Source of the DNA: Oceanithermus profundus DSM 14977
Lineage (GTDB): Bacteria; Deinococcota; Deinococci; Deinococcales; Marinithermaceae
Assembly (NCBI RefSeq): GCF_000183745.1
Contig: NC_014753.1
Span: forward strand, 1 to 64,000
Reading direction: 5' to 3'
DNA: 64,000 bases
The notes under the pieces are model-generated. The model saw only the letters and a program-made list of their open reading frames with translations, was not told where the DNA came from and did not search any database. The position numbers and the translations under genes are program-made. Below, one piece after another: positions 42,936 to 56,201 of the stretch (within the stretch, counting starts at the first letter, position 1; each line of letters begins with the position of its first letter).

Positions 42936-44153
42936 CTAACCCACCGCCTGGCGGATGCGGTCGAGGAAGGGGCGGATGGGGTGGGCGAGCCTCTCGTAGA
43001 AGTAGTCCTCCTGGGTCATCCCGTCCTCGGGGGAAAGGTCCAGGGTCCGCATGGGCGTGAGGGGGAGCCGGGCCTCGACGAGGAGCTCACCAGGCGCGAT
43101 GGGGTAGCCGCACGATGGGCCCCGAGAGAACCGCACGTCGGTGGACTCCCCCGCCCCGACCAGGGCGACGTAGAACGGCGGCTCGAAACCCATGGACACG
43201 AGGGACGCCAGGTTGGGGGTCAGCGCTTCGGGGACGGCCTCGAGGAGCTCGTCGGTGCTCAAACAAAAGCGCTTCCCCGAGACCTCGAAGGCTCGGGCGT
43301 CGGGCAATCCGAGGAGCATCTCGCCCCGGTGGGTCAGGTAGACGAGCTCCTCGACGCTCCCGTCCTTGGCGTCGGGTCGGGTCCCCAGGGCACCGAAGTG
43401 GGTGGGTCGTAACCCCACCCGCGCTTCGGGAGGGCCGAGGAGCAGGTGCATCGCAGGGAGCCCGTCGCCCGCGGGTCCGATTTCGACCTCGCGACCCGAC
43501 ACCGCGAGCGGCACGGAGGCCACGTAGAGGTAGAGGCCCACGCCGTCGGTCTCCTTCACTGGAACGTTCCGGCCGTGCTGGGCCGCGTCGGCAAGCTCGC
43601 GCGCCCGGGCACGGAACCCCTCGAGGACGGTCCGGCGGTGCGCCCGCACCCGGTCGATCTCCGCGGCCGTCATGACGACGGTCTCGCGGCCGGACCTCTG
43701 GGGGTAGACCCCGTTCACCTGGTGCGGGGCGTCGAGGCTCGGCGGAATCTCGACGACGATCGCGTAGCGGCCGTCGTCCAGGTCGACCGTGACCACTCGG
43801 TTGTCGATGGGCGGGTCGGCGTGCTCCTCGAGAGCGTCTCGAAGCAGCATCGCGACATGAAACGAGGGGGCGCCGTCGAAGCCCACGAGCCGCACGGGAA
43901 GGTCGCCGGTGGCTTCGATCCCCTGCACGACGACGCCGCCGTGGGCGTTCGCCAACGCCGCTGCGGCATGGACGAGCGCTTCGACTTGAGACTCCCCCTC
44001 GTCGCGACCCGCCTCCTCGCCCTGGGGGGCCTCTTCATCTTCATCGGAGGGCCTTGGGACGTAGACGAGGTGGTGGCCCGCGCGCACGCGGTCGGTGACG
44101 AGGCGCTCGAGGTCTTTTTCCGTTGGGGGCATGCTGCCAAAGATCTTTTCCAT
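42936..44153 (-). CDS. AlbA_2-like (Schlafen-type) protein, degenerate active site
   Basis: A 405-residue paralogue of the gene at 44313-45533. It keeps the ALANAHGGVVVQGIEATGD strand-turn region and the GRYAIVVEIPPSLDAPHQVNG region with the GVYPQRSGRETVVM segment, but the LDYKRE motif of AlbA_2 domains is replaced by an acidic linker (residues 33-57, VPRPSDEDEEAP...). A leaderless promoter, TAGGCT, lies 6 bases before ATG 44153. The C-terminal part matches its neighbour in layout. Probably a regulatory or defence-related protein; no function is established. Confidence 0.7.
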   Translation of the reverse strand: MEKIFGSMPPTEKDLERLVTDRVRAGHHLVYVPRPSDEDEEAPQGEEAGRDEGESQVEALVHAAAALANAHGGVVVQGIEATGDLPVRLVGFDGAPSFHVAMLLRDALEEHADPPIDNRVVTVDLDDGRYAIVVEIPPSLDAPHQVNGVYPQRSGRETVVMTAAEIDRVRAHRRTVLEGFRARARELADAAQHGRNVPVKETDGVGLYLYVASVPLAVSGREVEIGPAGDGLPAMHLLLGPPEARVGLRPTHFGALGTRPDAKDGSVEELVYLTHRGEMLLGLPDARAFEVSGKRFCLSTDELLEAVPEALTPNLASLVSMGFEPPFYVALVGAGESTDVRFSRGPSCGYPIAPGELLVEARLPLTPMRTLDLSPEDGMTQEDYFYERLAHPIRPFLDRIRQAVG

Positions 44154-44312: not shown

Positions 44313-45533
44313 TCATCCTCCTTCACCCAGGTCGTGCGCGAGCTGGCTGTGCGTGAATCCTCCTGCCTGCCAAAGGCGATCGAGGACGGGCTGGAGGCGG
44401 GCCGCCACCACCCGCGTGCCCCTTTGCCACGCCTCTTCGTCGCGCTCGTCGCTGGAAGCCTTGGCGATCGCCTCTACGTCATCGTCGAGGAGCAGTTGGT
44501 CGAGGAGCAGGAATGGCCTTTGTAGTTCTCGCCCACTGTACCGGGGCTTGCCGATCCTGTAGCCGTGCGCTCTCACCAAGACGAGGGCGAGGTAGTAGGG
44601 GCCCTCGAACCCCACGTCCCCCAGGCGGGGCAGGTTCTTGCGCAGCATCCTGGTGACGTTCAGCTCTATCGCATGGGCATCGATGCATTGGGGCTCTTCC
44701 CCGTGCTGCTTGCAGTGGGTGTATTCGCGGAGGGGCCCCACGCCGTGAAAAAGCTCGCCCTCGTGCGTCATCAGCGCGAAGTCCACGTGTGGTTCGCGCT
44801 CCTCGGCCGCGAGCAGTCCGTCGGCGTGGTGACCGAGCCGATAGCGCCCAGCGAAGGCGCTTAGCCACCGTATCGAGTGGAGCTCCTCAGGCCCGAGCAC
44901 GCGAACGGCCGCGGCGTCGTAGGTCGGAACCGAGGCCACGTAGAGGAGCGCCCCGGCCCAAAGCTCCCAGCGAACGGGGCCGTAACCGCTTTCGAGGTCG
45001 TCGATGCGCTGGCGCAAACGCTCGCGCATCTTCCTGATCACGTCACCCTTCTCGGCGAAGGCGCGGCGAACGTCCATGTAGCTCATACGCTCGGAACTCC
45101 TTCCCACCCTGCGATAGAACCGACCATCGGCCATGAGCGGGGCATTCAGGCTGCGGGGCACCTCGACGACGATCGCGTAGTTGCCGTCCTCGAGGCGGAC
45201 CGGCTGGGCGTGTACCTCGACCGCGGGTTCGGTGAGGTCGCGGATGGCGTGCTCGAGGGTAGACGCGGCACGGTCCGGGTCGTCGAGCTCCATCCCCACG
45301 AGCTCCTTGGGGACTCCGCCCTCTTCCTCCACCCCGTAGATCAGGTAGCCCCCGTAGGCATTGGCGAAGGCGGCCGCGTCCTTGGCGGCCTCCTTTCGGC
45401 CCCCTTTGGTCCCCAGATCAGCCTCGCGCTTGTAGTCGAGGTAGGGCCCTTCGGAGACCTCGCGGTCGATCAGCGAGCGGAGGTCCTCCTCGGTGAGGGC
45501 GGAAGTGGGCACCCCGAAGATCTTGCGGTACAT
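44313..45533 (-). CDS. AlbA_2-domain (Schlafen-type) protein
   Basis: A 406-residue protein. Residues 30-75 show the AlbA_2 signature LDYKREADLGTKGG...AFANAYGGYLIYGVEEEGG, and further on NYAIVVEVPRSLNAPLM with GRFYRRVGRSSERMSYMD. Such proteins are often called putative DNA-binding or Schlafen-like and are linked with regulation or defence. It is followed by a divergent paralogue, suggesting tandem duplication. ATG 45533 is preceded by TAGAAT at 6 bases: leaderless. Confidence 0.82.
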   Translation of the reverse strand: MYRKIFGVPTSALTEEDLRSLIDREVSEGPYLDYKREADLGTKGGRKEAAKDAAAFANAYGGYLIYGVEEEGGVPKELVGMELDDPDRAASTLEHAIRDLTEPAVEVHAQPVRLEDGNYAIVVEVPRSLNAPLMADGRFYRRVGRSSERMSYMDVRRAFAEKGDVIRKMRERLRQRIDDLESGYGPVRWELWAGALLYVASVPTYDAAAVRVLGPEELHSIRWLSAFAGRYRLGHHADGLLAAEEREPHVDFALMTHEGELFHGVGPLREYTHCKQHGEEPQCIDAHAIELNVTRMLRKNLPRLGDVGFEGPYYLALVLVRAHGYRIGKPRYSGRELQRPFLLLDQLLLDDDVEAIAKASSDERDEEAWQRGTRVVAARLQPVLDRLWQAGGFTHSQLAHDLGEGG

Positions 45534-45627: not shown

Positions 45628-46470
45628 CTAGGCCGCCGCGGCCTTGCCCGTGAGACCCGCGGCCCAGCGCAGCTTGGCCTGGGCGCGTTCGTAGGCCGCC
45701 CGGAGGGCCTTGGGGACGTACCCCAGGCGCTTGAAGGCCTCGAGGGCCTCCTCCTCTTCGGTGGCCAGCTTGGCGGCCGCCTCGAGCTCGGCCAGGGTCT
45801 CCTTGGCCTCGCTTTCCCCGAGGGCCGCCTCGAAGGCGGCGGCGGGATCGTACCGCTCGTCGGCGATGAGCTCGCCGATGGTGGTCGACCCCTCCTCGCC
45901 CACGGGCCGGTCCAACTCCAGAACGGAGAGGAGCTGGAGGGCCCAACTCACCCGCTCGGGGTCGGCTTCGCGACCCCGGCGGCCATCGCGGGGCTTCGCG
46001 ATCTCCCCCGCGATGGCCTCGGGGGTGGCCGGAAGGCCCTTCCCCTCGAGGTTGCGCTTGACCGCCGCCACCTGGCGCAGGAAGCGCGCCATGGCGGTCG
46101 AGAGCGAGACGCCCCCGCGCTCCATGGCCATCTGGTCCTCCAGGTGGACCTTCAGGTCCGCCAGGAAGAGGCGGGCCATGGAGACCCGGCGTGCCAGCAC
46201 TCGCTTCGGGAGGCGGTGCACCCACTCACCCAAGAAGGCGAAGCCGTCCTGGACGAGGTCCTGGTACCGCTCGAGCGAGCCGTAGCTCAGCTCGAAGGCC
46301 ACCAGGTGGATCACCGGGGCCATGCCCCGGTAGAGCGCCTCCACCGCGGCGCCCCGCTCACCGTTCAGGTACGCGGCCGCGGCCGCGTACATCTCTCCAC
46401 GGCTGGGGGGAGACTCGGCCGCCCAGCGCTGGAGGACCTCCACGGACGTCATTGCTGCTCTTCTTCCCAT
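45628..46470 (-). CDS. putative sigma-70 family factor
   Basis: A 280-residue protein with sigma-like features: a region 2-like helix with LERYQDLVQDGFAFLGEWVH, then VSLSTAMARFLRQVAAVKRNLEGKGLPATPEAIAGEI like region 3, then LDRPVGEEGSTTIGELIADERYDPAAAFEAAL, a hallmark of sigma-70 linkers, and a C-terminal helix-turn-helix-like LKRLGYVPKALRAAYERAQAKL region. Promoter-binding residues of region 2.4 are not obvious, so it may direct RNA polymerase to element genes or be a derived protein. Start could also be ATG 46452. Confidence 0.6.
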   Translation of the reverse strand: MGRRAAMTSVEVLQRWAAESPPSRGEMYAAAAAYLNGERGAAVEALYRGMAPVIHLVAFELSYGSLERYQDLVQDGFAFLGEWVHRLPKRVLARRVSMARLFLADLKVHLEDQMAMERGGVSLSTAMARFLRQVAAVKRNLEGKGLPATPEAIAGEIAKPRDGRRGREADPERVSWALQLLSVLELDRPVGEEGSTTIGELIADERYDPAAAFEAALGESEAKETLAELEAAAKLATEEEEALEAFKRLGYVPKALRAAYERAQAKLRWAAGLTGKAAAA

Positions 46471-46669
46471 CTTCTTCCTCCCACCCCGACGGGTGGCTTA
46501 CCAGCACGACCGGGGTGGGCTTCCTGGCCCCCTCCCGGCGCGCCGGCGCCGTCGGGGACCAGTTCGAGCCTAGCGCACCAGCGGTCCGGGCTGGGCGCGA
46601 AAAAGGAGCCGCCGGATCGCGCCGGCGGGCCATACACTTTTTCCCTTCATTGTTGGAAGGGAGCCGGGG

Positions 46670-46857
46670 TATCATTGGGACTATGAGCGGCTAGGCACGA
46701 GACACCATATGCGAACCGCCCGGATTGGGGAGTCCGGGCAGCGCAGAAGCCATCTTGACGTGGGCGATCTCTCTAAAGCCCACTTTACAAGAAAACCGGC
46801 CTCTGCGCAAGGGGGAGCGTATTGTCTCGAATCCCGGCCTACCGCTCGGGAGGTCGT
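46670..46857 (+). promoter_or_regulatory. promoter and structured leader of the rep-like gene with a 3-codon ORF
   Basis: A TATCAT -10 box (46670-46675) lies 7 bases before ATG 46683, which opens a complete three-codon frame (ATG AGC GGC TAG). The 175-base leader has hairpins at 46718-46739 and 46760-46783 and two competing pairings: CTCTGCGCAA (46801-46810) with TTGCGCAGAG (46865-46874, inside the rep start) or TCTGCGC (46802-46808) with GCGCAGA (46741-46747). This looks like copy-number control by attenuation. The sigma-like gene points the other way, so its promoter must also lie in 46471-46670; I see no clear box. Confidence 0.45.
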
Positions 46858-47859
46858 ATGCCATTTGCGCAGAGCAGGACGGTAAATTCTCCACCTTCGT
46901 TCCTTCGAGGGATCGCCCAACCCAAAGACCTTTGGGTCGCGGGTGAGACGACGCGAGCCTGGGACCGGGTGCTGCCCCGGGACCGCAAGGCGTTCGCCCT
47001 CGAGCTCGCCCGGGAGCTCCTGGCGGGGCGCCACGTGGGCCGTACGCGCCAGGCCCGCGAGCACGCCGAGCGGGTCCTCCACTACCTGGTCTACCTGGGC
47101 CTCCAGCAGGCCCAGCGCAGCCGCCAGCGGCGGGCGTCCGAGGTGGCCGTGCACGTGGTGCAGAGCCTGGCCGCGGTGCGGCTGTGGCCCGAGGCCAAGC
47201 CCGAGACCGCGCGCAAGCGCTTCGGGGTGGCGCTGAGGCGCCTGGCCTCCCTGGGCCTGGTGCGCCACCGGGGGCACGTCGCCGACCTGCGCTCGAGCTC
47301 TGGCCGGATCCTCTACGACGGCACCGTTGTGCGGGTGCGGCTGCGGCCCGGGCAGGTGGGCGGCTTCCTGCCCGAGGACTTCACCCACCCCTGGCGCGAC
47401 CTGGCCGCCGACCTGGCCGCCGGGCGGACGGCGAAGGCCTTGATTCGTGCGCGCGAAGTTTCCCACACCTCTACCGAGGAAAGAGACTTCAAAACCAACA
47501 CCTTGAAAGACTTGGGGTTTTCTTCTCCCTCACGCGTTCTTGCTTCGGTAGATACCTGGGAAACTTCGCTCCCGCCCAAGCCCTCGCGGGGCCAGATGCG
47601 CGACGCGATCGTGGACCTCGAGCTGGTGGAGGAAGCCCGCCACCTCGCCGTGGACCGGGTGGCCCGCATGATGGCCGCTGCGCTCGACGACGCCGCTTCG
47701 GTACGCTACTTCGCCGGTCTCCTCTGGCGGGCGCTGCGTTCGGGGCGCCTCTACGCCCTCGCGCAGCAGCTCGAGCGCCTCATGGCCGAGGTCGAGGAGG
47801 GCGGCGTCCGGAAGCCGGGCGCCCTGCTCGCGTCGCGGATGGGGAAGCTGGCGGCGTAG
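46858..47859 (+). CDS. putative plasmid replication initiator
   Basis: A 333-residue basic protein with a winged-helix-like segment (ETARKRFGVALRRLASLGLVRHRG) and a C-terminal pattern of Rep proteins (RYFAGLLWRALRSG...LAEVEEGGVRKPGALLASRM), where many replication proteins end in a 'GGVxNPGALL' motif. Identification is by this resemblance. ATG 46858 lies four bases after GGGAGG; the frame extends to TTG 46822 through the leader. No iterons were seen. Divergent from the sigma-like gene. Confidence 0.55.
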   Translation: MPFAQSRTVNSPPSFLRGIAQPKDLWVAGETTRAWDRVLPRDRKAFALELARELLAGRHVGRTRQAREHAERVLHYLVYLGLQQAQRSRQRRASEVAVHVVQSLAAVRLWPEAKPETARKRFGVALRRLASLGLVRHRGHVADLRSSSGRILYDGTVVRVRLRPGQVGGFLPEDFTHPWRDLAADLAAGRTAKALIRAREVSHTSTEERDFKTNTLKDLGFSSPSRVLASVDTWETSLPPKPSRGQMRDAIVDLELVEEARHLAVDRVARMMAAALDDAASVRYFAGLLWRALRSGRLYALAQQLERLMAEVEEGGVRKPGALLASRMGKLAA

Positions 47860-47861
47860 GC

Positions 47862-47963
47862 TTAGTCATCGAAGACGTCTTCCGGGAAGGCGCTGCGGCT
47901 GGCGCGCATCTCGTCGAGGACCTGCACCACCTCCTGGTGGAAGCGGGCGAAGCGAGCCGTTGC
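47862..47963 (-). pseudogene. protein-like fragment without a start, in frame with the upstream gene beyond two TGA codons
   Basis: The 33-codon stretch ends TAA at 47862 and reads as a normal peptide (ARFHQEVVQVLDEMRASRSA, then FPEDVFDD). It has no start codon with a ribosome binding site. It is in the same frame as the gene at 48021-48275, separated from it by two TGA codons (47964-47966 and 48021-48023). A remnant of a longer gene, or a read-through extension. Confidence 0.35.
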
Positions 47964-48020
47964 TCAATCGAGACCCGCGGCTACGCCGGCAACGGGGTAA
48001 ATATGGGTCGAAGGTGGGGG

Positions 48021-48275
48021 TCATCCGAGTAGCCCCTCCCCCCTCAGCTCTGCCTTTGCGCGCTCGAGGACCTCGTTAGGGAAGGTGTCGAGGCCCCACA
48101 ACTGGGTTGCCTTCTCCCCTACCGCGATGATCGCGTAGCGCCAGCGGGGCTCCCTGCGGTCGACGAGGGCCAGCTCCGGCCGGCCGTGGTCGGGCGCCTC
48201 GGGCTGGTAAGAGAGGGCGAACCGCTCGTCGAGCTGGCGACTTTGCACTCCCCCGTTCGTTCGCTTGCGCGGCAT
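48021..48275 (-). CDS. small hypothetical protein
   Basis: An 84-residue basic-then-acidic protein, MPRKRTNGGVQSRQLDERF..., with a YAIIAVGEKATQLWGL strand pair. ATG 48275 follows AAAGGGGG. Unknown function. It is downstream of the 48288 gene. Confidence 0.5.
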   Translation of the reverse strand: MPRKRTNGGVQSRQLDERFALSYQPEAPDHGRPELALVDRREPRWRYAIIAVGEKATQLWGLDTFPNEVLERAKAELRGEGLLG

Positions 48276-48650: not shown

Positions 48651-49007
48651 CTATTGATGCTCTTCAGGGGCGCTTTCTTCGGCCAACCAGCGCTCGAAGA
48701 AAATGGCGTGATCTTCGAGCCGCATGGCCGCTTCGTGGGGGACTCGAACTTGCACGGTCTCGCGCACCAGCTCCGCAAGGCGTTCACTGGCCCAGAGGAC
48801 CTGCCGCGGAAGCGGATCCAGGGCCTCTCCGTAGCCATGCAGAACGTGGGCATCGCGCTCGAGATCGACGAGTAGGCGAACGGCTTCTTCGATCAGGGGT
48901 CCAGCGGTGGTAGGTGCATTGTGACGCGAGAGGCGGCGCAACAGGTCGGGGACCCGTGTCAGGTGCGACCGCGCGAGGAGCGCGGCTTCTTCTCGACTTC
49001 TGGACAC
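48651..49007 (-). CDS. hypothetical protein downstream of RES toxin
   Basis: A 118-residue helical protein starting at GTG 49007, which has AAGGAGGAGCC just upstream and lies inside the end of the RES gene (49-base overlap). The frame extends to 49115 but that part is inside the RES coding sequence. Function unknown; coupling suggests a role with the toxin-antitoxin module. Confidence 0.5.
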   Translation of the reverse strand: MSRSREEAALLARSHLTRVPDLLRRLSRHNAPTTAGPLIEEAVRLLVDLERDAHVLHGYGEALDPLPRQVLWASERLAELVRETVQVRVPHEAAMRLEDHAIFFERWLAEESAPEEHQ

Positions 49008-49723
49008 GGCTCCTCCTTCTTGCGTGCAGGCAGCAGGGGGTTTCTCTTTCCCGTTACCCACGCCAGTGTCGTGTGGAGTGCGATCACGGACCAGCGCCAC
49101 CACCCGGGCCGGCACGGGATGTCTAGTCCGTACAACGCGCGAAGCGATCCGTGGTGCACGTTCTCCACGAAGACCGCTAGGTTCTGGCTGCCCGGCTCGT
49201 GCCGCGAGGGGTAAAGCACACCCTGGATTCCTGCGCTCCGGGCAGCGAGGGCGAGCTCGTGGATGGGAACGTAGTCGCCACGAATGGCCTTCATGTCGTG
49301 ATAGCGGTCGCTCACCTCTTCCGGGGTGATGGGGAGCAGGCCCGGGGCTTTCGAAAGCAGCTCTTCAAGGTGAAGCACCCGCTCGAGGCGAACCCGCACC
49401 GGGACGATGCAAAGCGGCGCACGCTCGTGGCGCGGGCGCAAACCTCCATGCATCACAAACTGCCCACCATGACCAAGATCGTCGAGGCCGTACCGCGTTT
49501 CCAGCACCACCGCGGTGGGCGAAGCCGAGAGGTAGAGCGTAGGAAGTTTCGTGCAGCCATCGAAGCGACCCACGCTCTGTTCGGCCCCTTTTCCGTTCAG
49601 CAGCACGGAACCGGGGCAGTGATAGGGCGGCCGCATGGCCCGGTAGCCGACGTGGTCCTCGAGTGGACGAACGAACGCCCCGGCTTTCGCCAGGGCGCCG
49701 TCGAAATCGCGGCCCTCGTTCAC
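48959..49723 (-). CDS. RES-domain toxin of a second RES-Xre module
   Basis: A 254-residue protein with RES features: GVLLNG-like and LPTLYLSASPTAVVLETRYGL near residues 50-75 (the Y-x-x-E pair), ATxxE-like segment, and GIQGVLYPSRHEPGSQNLAVF near residue 180, the C-terminal Ser-containing motif. It starts at GTG 49723, overlapping the antitoxin stop by 4 bases (GTGA). It is longer than the RES toxin at 15665 (159 residues) and ends with a basic tail. Confidence 0.8.
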   Translation of the reverse strand: MNEGRDFDGALAKAGAFVRPLEDHVGYRAMRPPYHCPGSVLLNGKGAEQSVGRFDGCTKLPTLYLSASPTAVVLETRYGLDDLGHGGQFVMHGGLRPRHERAPLCIVPVRVRLERVLHLEELLSKAPGLLPITPEEVSDRYHDMKAIRGDYVPIHELALAARSAGIQGVLYPSRHEPGSQNLAVFVENVHHGSLRALYGLDIPCRPGWWRWSVIALHTTLAWVTGKRNPLLPARKKEEPCPEVEKKPRSSRGRT

Positions 49724-50115
49724 GTCTCGGGCTCCCCCCTGTAAAGGTTCGCTACGGTCTGGTACACCAGCTTCATTCCCCATGGCTCTTTCGCCATGAG
49801 CTCGATGGCGGAGAGGCTCCCCTCCTCGCTCCAGCGGGTGCTCGGGGTTTTCAGCCAGGCGACGGCGTAGTCGAGGTCCCCGTAGAGCTCCTCGAGCATC
49901 CTGAGGATGCGCTCGAGTTCAGCCGCGCGCTTGCGGATCTTCGGCGTGGCCGAGTTCCGGCTCAGGGTCGAGGAATCCACGCCGAGGATCGGGGCTAGTG
50001 TGGAGAGGGGGATGCCAAGCACTTCTGCGATCGCCCGCGCGTCGTAGTCCTTCTTCCGGTTCCGTAAAGGAAGGATGGGGGCGGGGCCAAAAACCCCGGT
50101 GTGGGCCAAAGGCAT
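49720..50115 (-). CDS. Xre/MbcA/ParS-type antitoxin of the second module
   Basis: A 131-residue protein with an N-terminal helix-turn-helix (DARAIAEVLGIPLSTLAPILGVDSS) and the C-terminal toxin-binding domain (LYGDLDYAVAWLKTPSTRW then SAIELMAKEPWGMKLVYQTV). It precedes the RES toxin with a 4-base overlap, as in the first module. A palindromic operator lies upstream. Confidence 0.85.
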   Translation of the reverse strand: MPLAHTGVFGPAPILPLRNRKKDYDARAIAEVLGIPLSTLAPILGVDSSTLSRNSATPKIRKRAAELERILRMLEELYGDLDYAVAWLKTPSTRWSEEGSLSAIELMAKEPWGMKLVYQTVANLYRGEPET

Positions 50116-51105: not shown

Positions 51106-53775
51106 TCAACCTCCGGTGTAGCTGGCCAGGCCCTCTTTCAGCGCAGCAGCATCGAGGGGAACGACCTGGCCGGTGCGCAGGTAGACGAGGCGCACTTCGG
51201 GCTCGATGCCCCAGTGTTTGCGTACGGCCTCGCGATAGAGCGCGAGCTGGGAGTGGTAGCGCTCAGGGTGCACCTCGCGGTCGGTCTTGTAGTCTTCGAG
51301 GTACCAGACGTCGCCTACGCGGTACAGGCGGTCGATGACCCCCTCCCAGGCCGTAGCCCCGAGCGGGTAGACGAGGGGAAGCTCGGCCAGGTCCACTTCC
51401 CGCTCCTCGAGGCTCGGGATGGCGCTGCCCAGCAGGGTCCGGTAGACCCGCAGGAGCGTGGCCACCTCTTCGATCACGGCCGGCCGGCGATCCGCCGGAA
51501 CCTCCTCGAGGACCTGCTCCCCCTCAAGGGCCAGCAGCACCTCGGGATCGTCGGGGTCCCAATCGCGCTGAATGCCCTCGTGAACGAGGATGCCTACGAT
51601 CCGCCCGAGCAGCCGCGCCTCGGGGTCGGCGGGCCATGCCTCCTCGGGATCGGGGACCTCGAGCTCGCGCTCGGCCTTCAGCGCGGTGGGCGAGCTCACC
51701 GCCGGCGGGGCCGGGGGCAGGGGCGTGGCGAGCTCTGGATCCACGGGGAGGGTAGCGGCCTCTTGCTCGATGGGTTCTTCGAGGGCGATTTCTGCGAGGG
51801 TTACGTTGCGGTGTTCGAACTTCGACCCGAGGTTCAGAACCTCGGTGAGGTGGTGCAGCCACGAACCCTTTCTGGGCTCCTTCACCGCGGCGCTCACGAT
51901 GAGGCGCTCGGAGCTTCGCGAAAGGGCCACGTAGATCAGCCGGTGGTCCTCGCCCTCTTTGCGAGCCTTCAGCGCCTGTGCGATGGATTCGTATGCGTCC
52001 TCGCCGTTGAGGGCCACGCGGCCGGTGCGTGGTTCGATGACGAGCTCGTCGGAGTTGCCGTTGAAGGTGCGGTCGGCGTCGAAGATCACCACTACGGGAG
52101 CTTGTAGCCCCTTGGCGGCGTGCGCCGACATTACCCGCACGGCGTCCCCGCCCAACCGGGCGAGGCTGGCTTCTTCCTCGCCGCCGCTGCGGAAGCTCTC
52201 GAGGGTGGCCACCGCCTCGGGGTACGTGCGGGTGTGCTCAATCCGACCCAGGACGTAGAGGACGGTGTCCGCCATCTCGAGCTCGAGCAGGTCGAGGAAG
52301 GGAGGACCCTTGGCCGTCGGAGCCTCGATCAGTCGCGTCAGGGCCTCGGCGGGGCGCATCTTCTCGGCGTCGGCCCGGAGTCGCAGCAGGCGCTCGGCGG
52401 CCTCGGGGTGGTGCAGGGTCAGGTAGGACTCCGGAGCGTCCTGGGCCAGCACCTCGCGCACTTGCCCGAGCGTGAGCCCGCCAAAGGGGCCGCTGAGGAA
52501 GACGGCTAGGCTGTCGCGCGGCGCTTCGCCCGTGGCCAGACGCAGGGCATGGTAGAGCTCGCGAACCTCGGGCTCCTCGTAAAGCCCCCGCAGCCCAACG
52601 ACCGCGAAGGGCAGACCCGCTCCCCGCAAGGCCCGCAAGAGCGGCGGAAGCTGATGGCGTCGCCGGAACAGGACGAGCATCTGCCCGTAGTCGTAGCCCT
52701 CCTCGTCGTGCAGTCGGCGTAGCTCGCGGGCCAGCAAGCGAGCTTCCCCGTTCCGCAACGCATCCAGCGTGGCTTTGCCATCTCCGGGAGTCACGGTGAT
52801 CAGCTCCACGCGGGCGTCGCCCTCGCGGCCCGGCTTGACCTCGGGGGCCTCCTCGGCGGTGAACGCCTTTCCGAGGGCCGCCTCCGCGGACGTAAAGGCG
52901 TTGAGGAAGTCCGCGAGCGCAGGGGGATGACGGTAGCTCACCGTCAAGGTCTCGACGTTCCCGTTCTCGCGCGCGCGGCGATGGGCTTCGCGGAAACCCT
53001 CCACGTCGGCGTCGCGGAAAGCGTAGATCGACTGCTTGGGGTCGCCCACGACCTCGATGGGCACCCCGGCCTCCTCGAGGGCTTCGAAGACCCGAGCCTG
53101 GATCGGCGCGGTGTCCTGGTACTCGTCGACCAGCACCACTCCGAGCCGGGACCGTACACGCTCGAGGGCCTCCGGGTGGCGGATCAGGGCAAGCGCCCGA
53201 CGCTCGATCTCGCTGGGGTCGAGATAGCGGCCGCCCAGGCGTGTCAGCCAGCGGGCGTAGACCTTTTTGAACCCCGCGACCAGGCTCCGGCTTGCGTCGC
53301 CCGTTCCCTCGAAGGCTTCGGAGATCGAACGCCGCTTGAAGAGCTCGACCAGCGCCGTGGTCACGGTCTCGTCCACTTCAGCGCCCTCGATGATCGCGAG
53401 GTTGCGGACCTCCTCGAGGAACCACGCCCGCGCGGTCGCCGGGTCGATCACCTCGAAGTGAGGGTCGAGGCCCAGCATCGGCGCCGTCAACCGAAGCAGG
53501 TACCCGAAGAAGCTGTGAATGGTGCCGATGGGGGCCTCGAGCACCCTCACCTGGTAGTCGGCTAGCCGCTCCGCCAGGGCGGGCGAGGGGGTGAAGTCGT
53601 AGAACGATCCCCGGCCCAGGGCCTCGAAGATGCGCTCCCGAAGCTCGGCCGCGGCCTTGTTCGTGAACGTTACCGCAGCGACGCGCTGCGGCGGATGCTG
53701 CTCGAGGTGTTCGAGGTAGCGCTGGGTGAGCCGGGTCGTCTTCCCCGTCCCCGCGCTTGCGACGATGACCTTCAT
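51106..53775 (-). CDS. addA: UvrD-like helicase with C-terminal nuclease (AddA-like)
   Basis: Unwinds DNA ends and degrades them with its AddB-like partner. The 889-residue protein has Walker A ASAGTGKTT at residues 6-14, helicase motifs AVTFTNKAAAELRERI, VLVDEYQDTAPIQARVF and VMSAHAAKGLQAPVVVI, and a C-terminal PD-(D/E)xK site in EGVIDRLYRVGDVWYLEDYKT (Asp...Asp-Tyr-Lys). It starts at ATG 53775, overlapping the upstream gene's stop. The protein is shorter than B. subtilis AddA (about 1230). Confidence 0.85.
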   Translation of the reverse strand: MKVIVASAGTGKTTRLTQRYLEHLEQHPPQRVAAVTFTNKAAAELRERIFEALGRGSFYDFTPSPALAERLADYQVRVLEAPIGTIHSFFGYLLRLTAPMLGLDPHFEVIDPATARAWFLEEVRNLAIIEGAEVDETVTTALVELFKRRSISEAFEGTGDASRSLVAGFKKVYARWLTRLGGRYLDPSEIERRALALIRHPEALERVRSRLGVVLVDEYQDTAPIQARVFEALEEAGVPIEVVGDPKQSIYAFRDADVEGFREAHRRARENGNVETLTVSYRHPPALADFLNAFTSAEAALGKAFTAEEAPEVKPGREGDARVELITVTPGDGKATLDALRNGEARLLARELRRLHDEEGYDYGQMLVLFRRRHQLPPLLRALRGAGLPFAVVGLRGLYEEPEVRELYHALRLATGEAPRDSLAVFLSGPFGGLTLGQVREVLAQDAPESYLTLHHPEAAERLLRLRADAEKMRPAEALTRLIEAPTAKGPPFLDLLELEMADTVLYVLGRIEHTRTYPEAVATLESFRSGGEEEASLARLGGDAVRVMSAHAAKGLQAPVVVIFDADRTFNGNSDELVIEPRTGRVALNGEDAYESIAQALKARKEGEDHRLIYVALSRSSERLIVSAAVKEPRKGSWLHHLTEVLNLGSKFEHRNVTLAEIALEEPIEQEAATLPVDPELATPLPPAPPAVSSPTALKAERELEVPDPEEAWPADPEARLLGRIVGILVHEGIQRDWDPDDPEVLLALEGEQVLEEVPADRRPAVIEEVATLLRVYRTLLGSAIPSLEEREVDLAELPLVYPLGATAWEGVIDRLYRVGDVWYLEDYKTDREVHPERYHSQLALYREAVRKHWGIEPEVRLVYLRTGQVVPLDAAALKEGLASYTGG

Positions 53776-56126
53776 GCGTTCCCCTTTCTCCGCACGACGC
53801 GGTGGCGACAAATGTCGGCGAAGCGACAGCTGCGACAGCGATAATCGCTACGTGCAATTCGGTACACACCGCGTTCGGCGTTGGCAACCATGCGCACGGC
53901 CCTCTCTACTCCACGTACGAAATTCTCGTTTCGAAGGACCCATCTCCCGAAAGGAGTCTGGCGTGTAGCGATTCGGCGGCGCAGAGGGATCGAGTGGACG
54001 CTCACCATTACCTCGCGCCCGTCGCGGGCTAACCGCCTAACCGCGAGGTAATAGCTCGGACGTTTGCTTGCGTGCTCCCAGGCACTCCTGCTGCTCTTTA
54101 TCTCCTTGGTCGTCACGTAGATGATCTCGGCAAGCTCGTCGTCGCTGACTACGATGTGGAGCTTCACCGGGAAACCCATCTCACCGCCCACCTTCTCCAT
54201 GACGGTGAACTCAGGTAAAAAGTGCCAGCGCTCGTCTACCTCGGAAGGATCAAACCCTAGCCCTTCCAGGGCTTCCCGGTCCGTTCGATCCCCCTTCAAA
54301 CGTTCGAGTAGTTCGTACCACTCAAGCGCGCCCTCGTCTTCTTCGCCCAGGTTCATCCGCTGAAGAAAGGCCTGGTACCCGCATTCGTCGAGCATGCGCA
54401 CCTGATCAATGTGGCGATAGGTCAAGGGTGCGGCGACTTCGGGCGGGCTGTAGATGCCCTCCTTGCGCTCGGCGGGGAGGGGCGCAGGATCGGCGAGGGG
54501 CACCTTTTCCTTTTTCATGCCGATCAGCGCAACTTCCGGTTCGACCGGCCCGCTCGCGCTGGCCAGCGGGAAGCTGAGGGTCGTCGTCCGGCCGGCGCCA
54601 CGCAGCTCGTCCCACAGAGAGAGGGTCCGGTTGCGAAGGCGCTCGGGCAGCCCCAGCTCTTCGAAGGCAGCGTCCCAGGGCAGGCGCACCCCGGGATCGT
54701 CGGGCAGGAAGTAGTCTTCCTGCTCACCCGTGAGGTAGGCGCCCGCAAAGGCGCCGGCGACGAAGGCGTGTTCGAAGCGGCGCCCCCCAAGCCGCCCCGC
54801 CGTGGTGAAGGTCACTCCGCGAGCCTCCTGGCGCACGGGGCGCAAGGTTCCCAAGAGGGCGCGCCACCAGTCGCGCATGCGCGCGGGGTCGTAGTCGTGG
54901 CCGTTTACGAAGCGCGCGGCGAGGAAGCCGGCGCGCATGAACTCGTCCGCCCAGGGCGAAGACGCGAGTAGCGGATCCTCTTGGATCAACCTGCGCACCC
55001 AGTCTTCGGGATCCTCCGAGGGTTCGGGCTCGAGCATCCGCCGGGCCTCCTCGAAGCGCTCTTCCAGGCCCAGCTCGGAAGCTAGCCGTTCGGTGGCTTC
55101 CATGCCCGAGACCCCCAGGGCGTAGAGGCGGGCGGCCAGCGGCTCGAGCCCGGGCACACGCCGCAGGGCGTCCGCCGTAGGGTGGTCGGCCAGCGCGAGC
55201 CGGTCGAGAAGGTGGCGGCCCTCGTCGAGGTCGGCTAGGCTCTCGGTGTGCTCGTCGGCGAGCGGGACTTCGAAACGCTGCGCGAAGTGGCGGTAGTGGC
55301 TCGCCAGGCCCGGGGGCGTAACGACGACGATCTCGCTTGGGGAAACGCCGTCGACCAGCAGGCGCTTCACCCGGGCCATCACCCAGCGCGCCTCCTCCAC
55401 CACGTTGGGGAGCGCGAACCGCTCGAGTTCGACATGGGACTCCTCGAGGAGCTGGCTCGTGGGAAGCGTGGGGACCGGTGCGGGCGACGTGACGACGACC
55501 TCGCCCCCGAGCTTCGCGTACGCCTTGAGGAAGCGCACCTCTACCGGCGACAGCTCACGGAAGCCGTCCACGATCAGGGTGGCGTACGGTAGGCGCTCGA
55601 GCTCTCCCAGGTGCTCGAGGGCCTCGTTGCGCCGGTCGTCGGGGTCCTGGTAACGCCGGCCCTGGCGCAACTCTTCGTAGCGCGCGTAGACTTGCCGGAG
55701 CCGCGCCGCTTCCCGGTCGGGCTCGGGCACGCTGTCGGGCTTCACCCCGTAGCGCTTGAGCTCGGCGATGGCCCGGGCAAATAGGCTGGCCTCGCCCGGG
55801 CCCGGGGTGCGGCCGTCGACCTCGCGCAGGGCCTCCCCCACCAGCGCGATGCGCTCAAGCGCGTCGAGCGGCGGACCCAGGCGGCCAAGCTCCGCCAGGA
55901 TCTCGGTGTAGAGGGCCTGCCAGTGGAGCACCTTGAAGCCGGGCGCTCCACCCTGTTCCCGGGCAAAGCGGGCGAGCAGGTGCCTGCGTGCCTGCGGCAG
56001 GGTGACGACGCCCACGCGGTGGGGGGTAGGCTCGCGGAGCCGCTCCGCGGCCAGGGACAGGACGTGGGCGGTCTTCCCCGCCCCCGCGGGCCCCACCACG
56101 GTATGAAGCGCTGCCTCGTTTTTCAC
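53772..56126 (-). CDS. addB: AddB-like nuclease subunit with iron-sulphur cysteines
   Basis: A 784-residue partner of the AddA-like helicase. The N-terminus has a Walker A GPAGAGKT (residues 11-18). The C-terminus has CRSCRFADICRH and an upstream single Cys (DECGYQAFLQ), the four-Cys layout of AddB iron-sulphur clusters. The nuclease core is altered: where GxxDRxD...DYKT is expected, I see VKLHIVV... and YVTTKEIKSS, so only the E-x-K part fits. It starts at GTG 56126 with GAGGAGG upstream, not at the earlier frame start. Overlaps AddA by 4 bases. Confidence 0.75.
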   Translation of the reverse strand: MKNEAALHTVVGPAGAGKTAHVLSLAAERLREPTPHRVGVVTLPQARRHLLARFAREQGGAPGFKVLHWQALYTEILAELGRLGPPLDALERIALVGEALREVDGRTPGPGEASLFARAIAELKRYGVKPDSVPEPDREAARLRQVYARYEELRQGRRYQDPDDRRNEALEHLGELERLPYATLIVDGFRELSPVEVRFLKAYAKLGGEVVVTSPAPVPTLPTSQLLEESHVELERFALPNVVEEARWVMARVKRLLVDGVSPSEIVVVTPPGLASHYRHFAQRFEVPLADEHTESLADLDEGRHLLDRLALADHPTADALRRVPGLEPLAARLYALGVSGMEATERLASELGLEERFEEARRMLEPEPSEDPEDWVRRLIQEDPLLASSPWADEFMRAGFLAARFVNGHDYDPARMRDWWRALLGTLRPVRQEARGVTFTTAGRLGGRRFEHAFVAGAFAGAYLTGEQEDYFLPDDPGVRLPWDAAFEELGLPERLRNRTLSLWDELRGAGRTTTLSFPLASASGPVEPEVALIGMKKEKVPLADPAPLPAERKEGIYSPPEVAAPLTYRHIDQVRMLDECGYQAFLQRMNLGEEDEGALEWYELLERLKGDRTDREALEGLGFDPSEVDERWHFLPEFTVMEKVGGEMGFPVKLHIVVSDDELAEIIYVTTKEIKSSRSAWEHASKRPSYYLAVRRLARDGREVMVSVHSIPLRRRIATRQTPFGRWVLRNENFVRGVERAVRMVANAERGVYRIARSDYRCRSCRFADICRHRVVRRKGNA

Positions 56127-56201
56127 GTCGACCTCCTCTTCGTATTGTTCCAAGAAATCGGGCGCCCCGAAGGGCGCCCTGCACCGTTTTGGCGATTACA
56201 A

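Follow-up and report, generated by a model that had tools for sequence, protein, structure and literature searches.

Introduction

Plasmids of the IncFII (CopA/CopT-tap-repA) and IncI (RepYZ) types combine an antisense RNA, a folded leader and a small upstream ORF. In pT181 (RNAI/repC) and pIP501 (RNAIII/repR), control is exerted by transcriptional attenuation, in which a pairing A:B competes with a pairing B:C and the antisense RNA sidelines the pre-emptor (PMC5703833). In the staphylococcal RepA_N plasmid pSK41, RNAI is antisense to the leader ∼100 nt before the rep start and is thereby proposed to bring about a stem-loop in which the ribosome-binding site is hidden; the origin of pSK41-type plasmids lies inside the rep gene (PMC5703833).

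The rep genes of the Thermus plasmids pTthSNM1-1d, -1e, -1-7e, -1-7f, and -3-3d support replication in T. thermophilus HB27 when cloned, and these five replicons are kept at 1.2–3.3 copies per chromosome (PMC12724237). The 5′UTRs of such Thermus replicons fall into two groups for a reason called unclear; plasmids known to share a cell (two each in strains SNM1-1 and SNM1-7) belong to different groups, and vectors of the pTT8 and pTthSNM1-1d types coexist (PMC12724237). Antisense RNA is nowhere mentioned in that study, and in the literature that we searched, control of plasmid replication by antisense RNA was not described for Thermus or its relatives.

The genome and plasmid of the hot-vent bacterium Oceanithermus profundus 506T have been published (PMC3111992). 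The genome of 2,439,291 bp consists of two contigs, of which the plasmid pOCEPR01 accounts for 135,351 bp. Here we analyze the rep region of pOCEPR01 within a stretch of 64 kb (the window, whose numbering is used throughout); the evidence on control by the rep leader is sequence-based in all its parts. The locus most likely represents plasmid replication under antisense control, which is known from other systems but would be new for this replicon family and phylum within the literature searched.

The rep-like gene and its internal repeat

The rep-like gene P0001 is, as judged by homology, a distant relative of the Thermus plasmid Reps shown to sustain replication. In tblastn searches it matched genes of small Thermus and Deinococcus plasmids at 26–49% identity, with E values down to 6e-16 for plasmid members and 1e-8 for pTthSNM1-1d. 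A profile match to the Rep family of pTthSNM1-1d and relatives spans most of the protein, which places P0001 among the initiators homologous to this family; among the pTT8/pIOK replicons of Thermus, the Rep of the pIOK series is also homologous to it. Matches to Pfam and NCBIfam families were absent, and Pfam gave no RepA_N domain that would assign P0001 to the RepA_N group. Used alone as a protein query against genome and viral collections, P0001 found no relatives, phages included, and a search of the O. profundus genome for the Rep_3 family was also negative. An AlphaFold model of the single protein had a pLDDT of 42 and was discarded. Because the homologues are proven Thermus replicons, the label 'rep-like' given by the first-pass annotation is sound, with P0001 as the putative plasmid replication initiator.

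The gene contains a perfect inverted repeat with 13 bp arms set 91 bp apart (codon-shuffle maximum 11), in DNA that is A+T-rich (G+C 0.48 versus 0.71 for the gene). Such an origin-like repeat inside rep is a family trait. Most members carry a perfect inverted repeat with arms of 10–17 bp about 79–98 bp apart, usually surrounding DNA that is A+T-richer than the gene, at a place within the gene that varies by lineage. The repeat is probably an origin embedded in the initiator gene (Table 1).

Table 1. Features of the pOCEPR01 rep region in window positions, followed by corresponding elements at related loci (L numbers).
Feature	Position	Strand	Details
Divergent gene	45628–46470	-	Upstream of rep leader
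Predicted antisense RNA, about 176 nt	46600–46775	-	Deduced from promoter and terminator
Intrinsic terminator	46600–46628	-	7 bp G+C stem, then CTCCTTTTT
Sense −10 box TATCAT (predicted)	46670–46675	+	Sequence
Structured rep leader RNA	46683–46857	+	Fold z −4.4; composition-corrected z −3.6
Leaderless mini-ORF ATG AGC GGC TAG	46683–46694	+	At predicted transcript start
Closing stem P1	46685–46847	+	46685–46696 pairs with 46837–46847, directly before SD
Segment A, GCGCAGAAGCC	46741–46751	+	Pairs with B in free leader; covered by predicted antisense RNA
Antisense −10 TAAAGT (predicted)	46782–46787	-	17 bases from −35; predicted start near 46775
Segment B, CTCTGCGCAA	46801–46810	+	3′ arm of main hairpin; overlaps antisense −35
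Antisense −35 TTGCGC (predicted)	46805–46810	-	Sequence pattern; spacing and permuted-motif controls
rep-like gene P0001, 333 aa	46858–47859	+	ATG start; SD GGGAGG 46848–46853
Segment C, TTGCGCAGAG, rep codons 3–6	46865–46874	+	10 bp complement of B
Origin-like inverted repeat in rep	47453–47569	+	Arms GCGAAGTTTCCCA (47453–47465) and TGGGAAACTTCGC (47557–47569)
rep genes with internal inverted repeat	47453–47569 (window)		Also L006–L013, L016, L025, L031, L037, L040
B/C pair, pTMY type			CCCCTCCC with SD GGGAGGGG
B/C pair, L006			GCCTCC with GGAGGC
B/C pair, L016			GCGCCTCC with GGAGGCGC
B/C pair, L062			GGGTACCACCTC with GAGGTGGTGCCC

Fold of the rep leader

Hairpins and two competing pairings that involve the rep start had been noticed in the first-pass annotation, and they are present in the sequence. 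The folding energy of the leader is −89 kcal/mol compared with −69.9 ± 4.4 for shuffles, and 0 of 320 equal-length stretches of the window lie further below the energy expected from composition. The duplex of the closing stem P1 has an energy of −20.9, compared with −7.5 ± 3.4 in shuffles (p 0.0005). B and C form 10 perfect base pairs (p 0.0065), a duplex whose energy by itself is unexceptional in the window (p 0.17). The second, putative competing pairing at the rep start is weaker, with 6 bp (CAUAUG/CGUAUG).

The fold is strong and compact and sets in at the predicted transcription start, as would also be expected of a ligand- or temperature-responsive RNA, a riboswitch or thermometer working without antisense control. 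However, searches with Rfam at gathering and relaxed thresholds returned no relevant family in the window or its relatives, and what the leaders of related rep genes share is an antisense promoter and not sequence, which makes such an RNA very unlikely here. Both strands of the leader fold about equally well, as they would if the repeats worked at the DNA level, perhaps in a single-strand origin or a Rep-binding site of the kind usual at rep starts, with the RNA fold incidental. We give this explanation hardly any weight: the origin-like repeat lies elsewhere, inside rep, and neither the promoter spacing nor the B:C complement would be accounted for.

A search at the DNA level for sequences related to the window leader yielded chance-level pieces only and nothing alignable. 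The leader types are mutually unalignable, and an alignment of 23 rows was too diverse for a pattern scan. Within the pTMY-type leaders, which are relatives and do not include the window, the helices show compensatory changes in 5 pairs, a count reached by 0 of 500 shuffles.

A promoter pattern on the opposite strand

An antisense RNA acting on the leader had been suspected from the outset, and the minus strand of the leader does carry a promoter pattern, TTGCGC-N17-TAAAGT, running from 46810 to 46782. Alignment of the pTMY-type Thermus leaders with the leader of L006 left few conserved blocks, one of which is GGCAA. It was dropped as an RNA motif, being the complement of TTGCC in the antisense −35. 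On the minus strand of every member of this alignment, TANNNT with varying N lies 17–18 bases past TTGCC, and the same TTGC/TANNNT arrangement occurs in leaders without sequence similarity to the pTMY type, the window included.

Among 20 leader types, a minus-strand TTG-N16–18-TANNNT precedes rep in 9 within 110 bases and in 10 within 150. At other spacings the two boxes were found in 0–2 of the 20 types and on the sense strand in none; permuted motifs were found in 1.4–2.0 types on average, with maxima of 4–6. Seven types, picked after the pattern was noticed, gave shuffle p values of 0.008–0.044 each for TTGC-TANNNT, and the −35 begins with TTGC in all of them. For the window alone, p is 0.012 with TTGC and 0.024 with TTG, so the case for an antisense promoter is made by the recurrence of the pattern across leader types and not by the window p value. 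The layout recurs before related rep genes across Thermus and relatives, with antisense terminators downstream in most types (e.g., L010, L012, L013, and L095); it is absent from the chromosomal relatives and some others.

In the window, the terminator is the first clear one on the minus strand past the antisense promoter. Placed with the rep promoter on one side and the divergent gene on the other, it has no other evident use. The region has the promoter pattern on the opposite strand (backed by the spacing control) and the terminator expected of an antisense-RNA-controlled rep gene. A promoter pointing this way could instead serve the divergent gene, and a TPR gene is so placed in several pTMY-type plasmids. 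This is quite improbable, since the window terminator separates the promoter from the gene, and the pTthSNM1 and pTB2 types keep the promoter, mostly together with a short antisense terminator, even though their upstream gene lies on the sense strand. The antisense promoter is the firm part of the antisense model, judged from these patterns, and the mode of action is its weaker part.

A proposed antisense switch in the rep leader

Replication of pOCEPR01 is probably controlled by a minus-strand antisense RNA that switches the rep leader between the pairings A:B and B:C. The rep mRNA would start at about 46683 and carry the long folded leader, in which pairing of A with B leaves the rep start usable. 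From the minus-strand promoter, a counter-transcribed RNA would extend from the hairpin loop to the terminator. At high plasmid copy number this RNA would be abundant and cover A, and the freed B could then pair with the first rep codons in C, so that less Rep is made. We infer that the antisense RNA is made, binds and blocks translation rather than acting in another way.

The same arrangement is found in several leader types: read on the sense strand, the antisense promoter doubles as the 3′ arm B of the main hairpin, and B in turn has a complement in the rep start region, C (Table 1). When the part covered by the antisense RNA was blocked in the calculation, the predicted access of the window start region fell from 0.49 to 0.25 at 37°C and from 0.54 to 0.32 at 65°C. 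Similar falls were predicted at the SD in L039, L014, and L016, and no loss of access in L010, L037, L095, L017, L087, and L062. A structure that hides the rep start upon antisense binding, as proposed for pSK41, is thus predicted in the window and some relatives but not in others.

The locus resembles pSK41 in the predicted antisense layout within the rep leader, which would drive attenuation, and in the probable origin inside rep. It differs in that its Rep lacks a RepA_N match, in that the predicted blocking helix falls on codons 3–6 and not on the SD, and in the phylum of the host. With pT181 and pIP501 it would share the logic of A:B versus B:C. A scan of 46300–48100 found no plus-strand intrinsic terminator before rep, in contrast to the pT181 type, and attenuation in pOCEPR01 would therefore act on translation. 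The predicted antisense RNA, the folded leader and the small upstream ORF are features in common with IncFII and IncI; however, the ORF in the window occupies the 5′ end of the leader, and about 160 nt separate its stop from rep. Since it ends at 46694 and rep starts at 46858, coupling by overlap as with the IncFII/IncI leader peptides is not available.

Copy-number control of a rep gene by antisense RNA or attenuation, the class named for the leader in the first-pass annotation, is well supported by Rep homology, the opposite-strand promoter, the terminators and the A:B/B:C pairs. The part of that proposal that gave the mini-ORF a role fared less well.

The leaderless mini-ORF

The TATCAT box stands 7 bases (TGGGACT) before ATG AGC GGC TAG, whose stop is at 46692–46694, exactly as first described. 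The 64 kb window has one such combination per strand, counting every TANNNT box with an ATG 6–7 bases further on that opens an ORF of no more than five codons. In Deinococcota, TANNNT boxes act as promoter elements of leaderless genes, and leaderless expression is common in the phylum (PMC12340547). From the box we infer a start of the rep mRNA at 46683. The −35 for this start is poor, another TANNNT (TACACT) lies 37 bases upstream, and a promoter scan gave no sigma-70-type site by its criteria.

Of 14 leaders, 5 have an AUG 6–8 bases after a TANNNT box, where shuffles would give 0.28, an expectation that is too low because shuffling destroys promoters and a real promoter is presupposed. The leader of L006 (2716–2966, minus strand) combines hairpins and the same antisense promoter with a 13-codon ORF that opens 6 bases past TATACT, and it shares short blocks with the pTMY-type Thermus leaders. 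Within the pTMY-type group the mini-ORF is not conserved: L039, L018, and L027 have the ATG, and L014, L015, L023, and L059 have none. The length ranges from 3 to >15 codons and the reading differs too, and an AUG at this place is missing from many relatives whose antisense layout is the same. In short, a leaderless three-codon ORF is present before rep and leaderless ORFs recur there above chance, but the ORF is not conserved as a control element. In our view it is optional or incidental; a regulatory role is possible.

One such role would be that of a sensor: P1 would be melted by a 70S ribosome sitting on the 5′ AUG, and translation, depending on its state, would determine the fold and with it the level of rep, as leader peptides do elsewhere. 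The recurrence of the AUG, the commonness of leaderless expression in the phylum and the position of the window ORF, which mostly coincides with the 5′ strand of P1, speak for a sensor, but the variable length and presence of the ORF even within the pTMY-type group, the shuffle expectation lowered in part by destroyed promoters, and the lack of evident coupling to rep make it unlikely. In a combined form, a 70S ribosome loaded at the leaderless AUG, right at the first base of the transcript, would open the closing stem, and rep would be set jointly by the antisense RNA and by the general capacity for translation. This form is a long shot; if true, plasmids of Thermaceae would have evolved such a device on several occasions.

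5′UTR groups and plasmid compatibility

Control by an antisense RNA would provide a concrete model of copy number and incompatibility for the plasmids that underlie Thermus vectors, and would offer a reason for the conserved 5′UTR groups left unexplained in 2025. The antisense pattern is present in both groups. The leaders of pTT8 and pTthSNM1-1d are 94% identical over 110 bases and have the same antisense promoter pattern, and their predicted antisense RNAs differ by few bases. Vectors of these two types nevertheless coexist, which counts against the model: either specificity is decided by a few bases of the loop, or incompatibility is determined by something other than the antisense RNA.

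Over the stretch compared, the leaders of the plasmids pTthSNM1-1e, -3-3d, and -1-7e (L062, L063, and L094) do not differ, and the antisense model therefore predicts that these three should be incompatible and not coexist. The prediction runs against the general statement in PMC12724237, whose data concern other pairs.

The rep genes of pTT8 (L105), pTB2 (L106), and pTthSNM1-1d (L037) follow a nearly identical antisense-bearing leader and are annotated as different kinds; the pTT8 Rep is recorded as a primase C-terminal domain protein. Near-identical leaders before reps annotated as primase C-terminal or as hypothetical Rep suggest that control module and initiator have been exchanged between plasmids.

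Genes near rep

Downstream of rep, a gene with a RES domain (48959–49783, minus strand) adjoins a gene with an Xre-like antitoxin domain (49720–50115, minus strand), and the two are probably a toxin-antitoxin pair. Further on, the minus strand of 51106–56153 encodes a UvrD-type helicase with a PD-(D/E)XK nuclease domain together with an AddB-like gene, a plasmid-borne AddAB-like pair. On the other side of the leader, two neighboring genes (42936–44153 and 44313–45533, both on the minus strand) each contain a Schlafen AlbA_2 domain.
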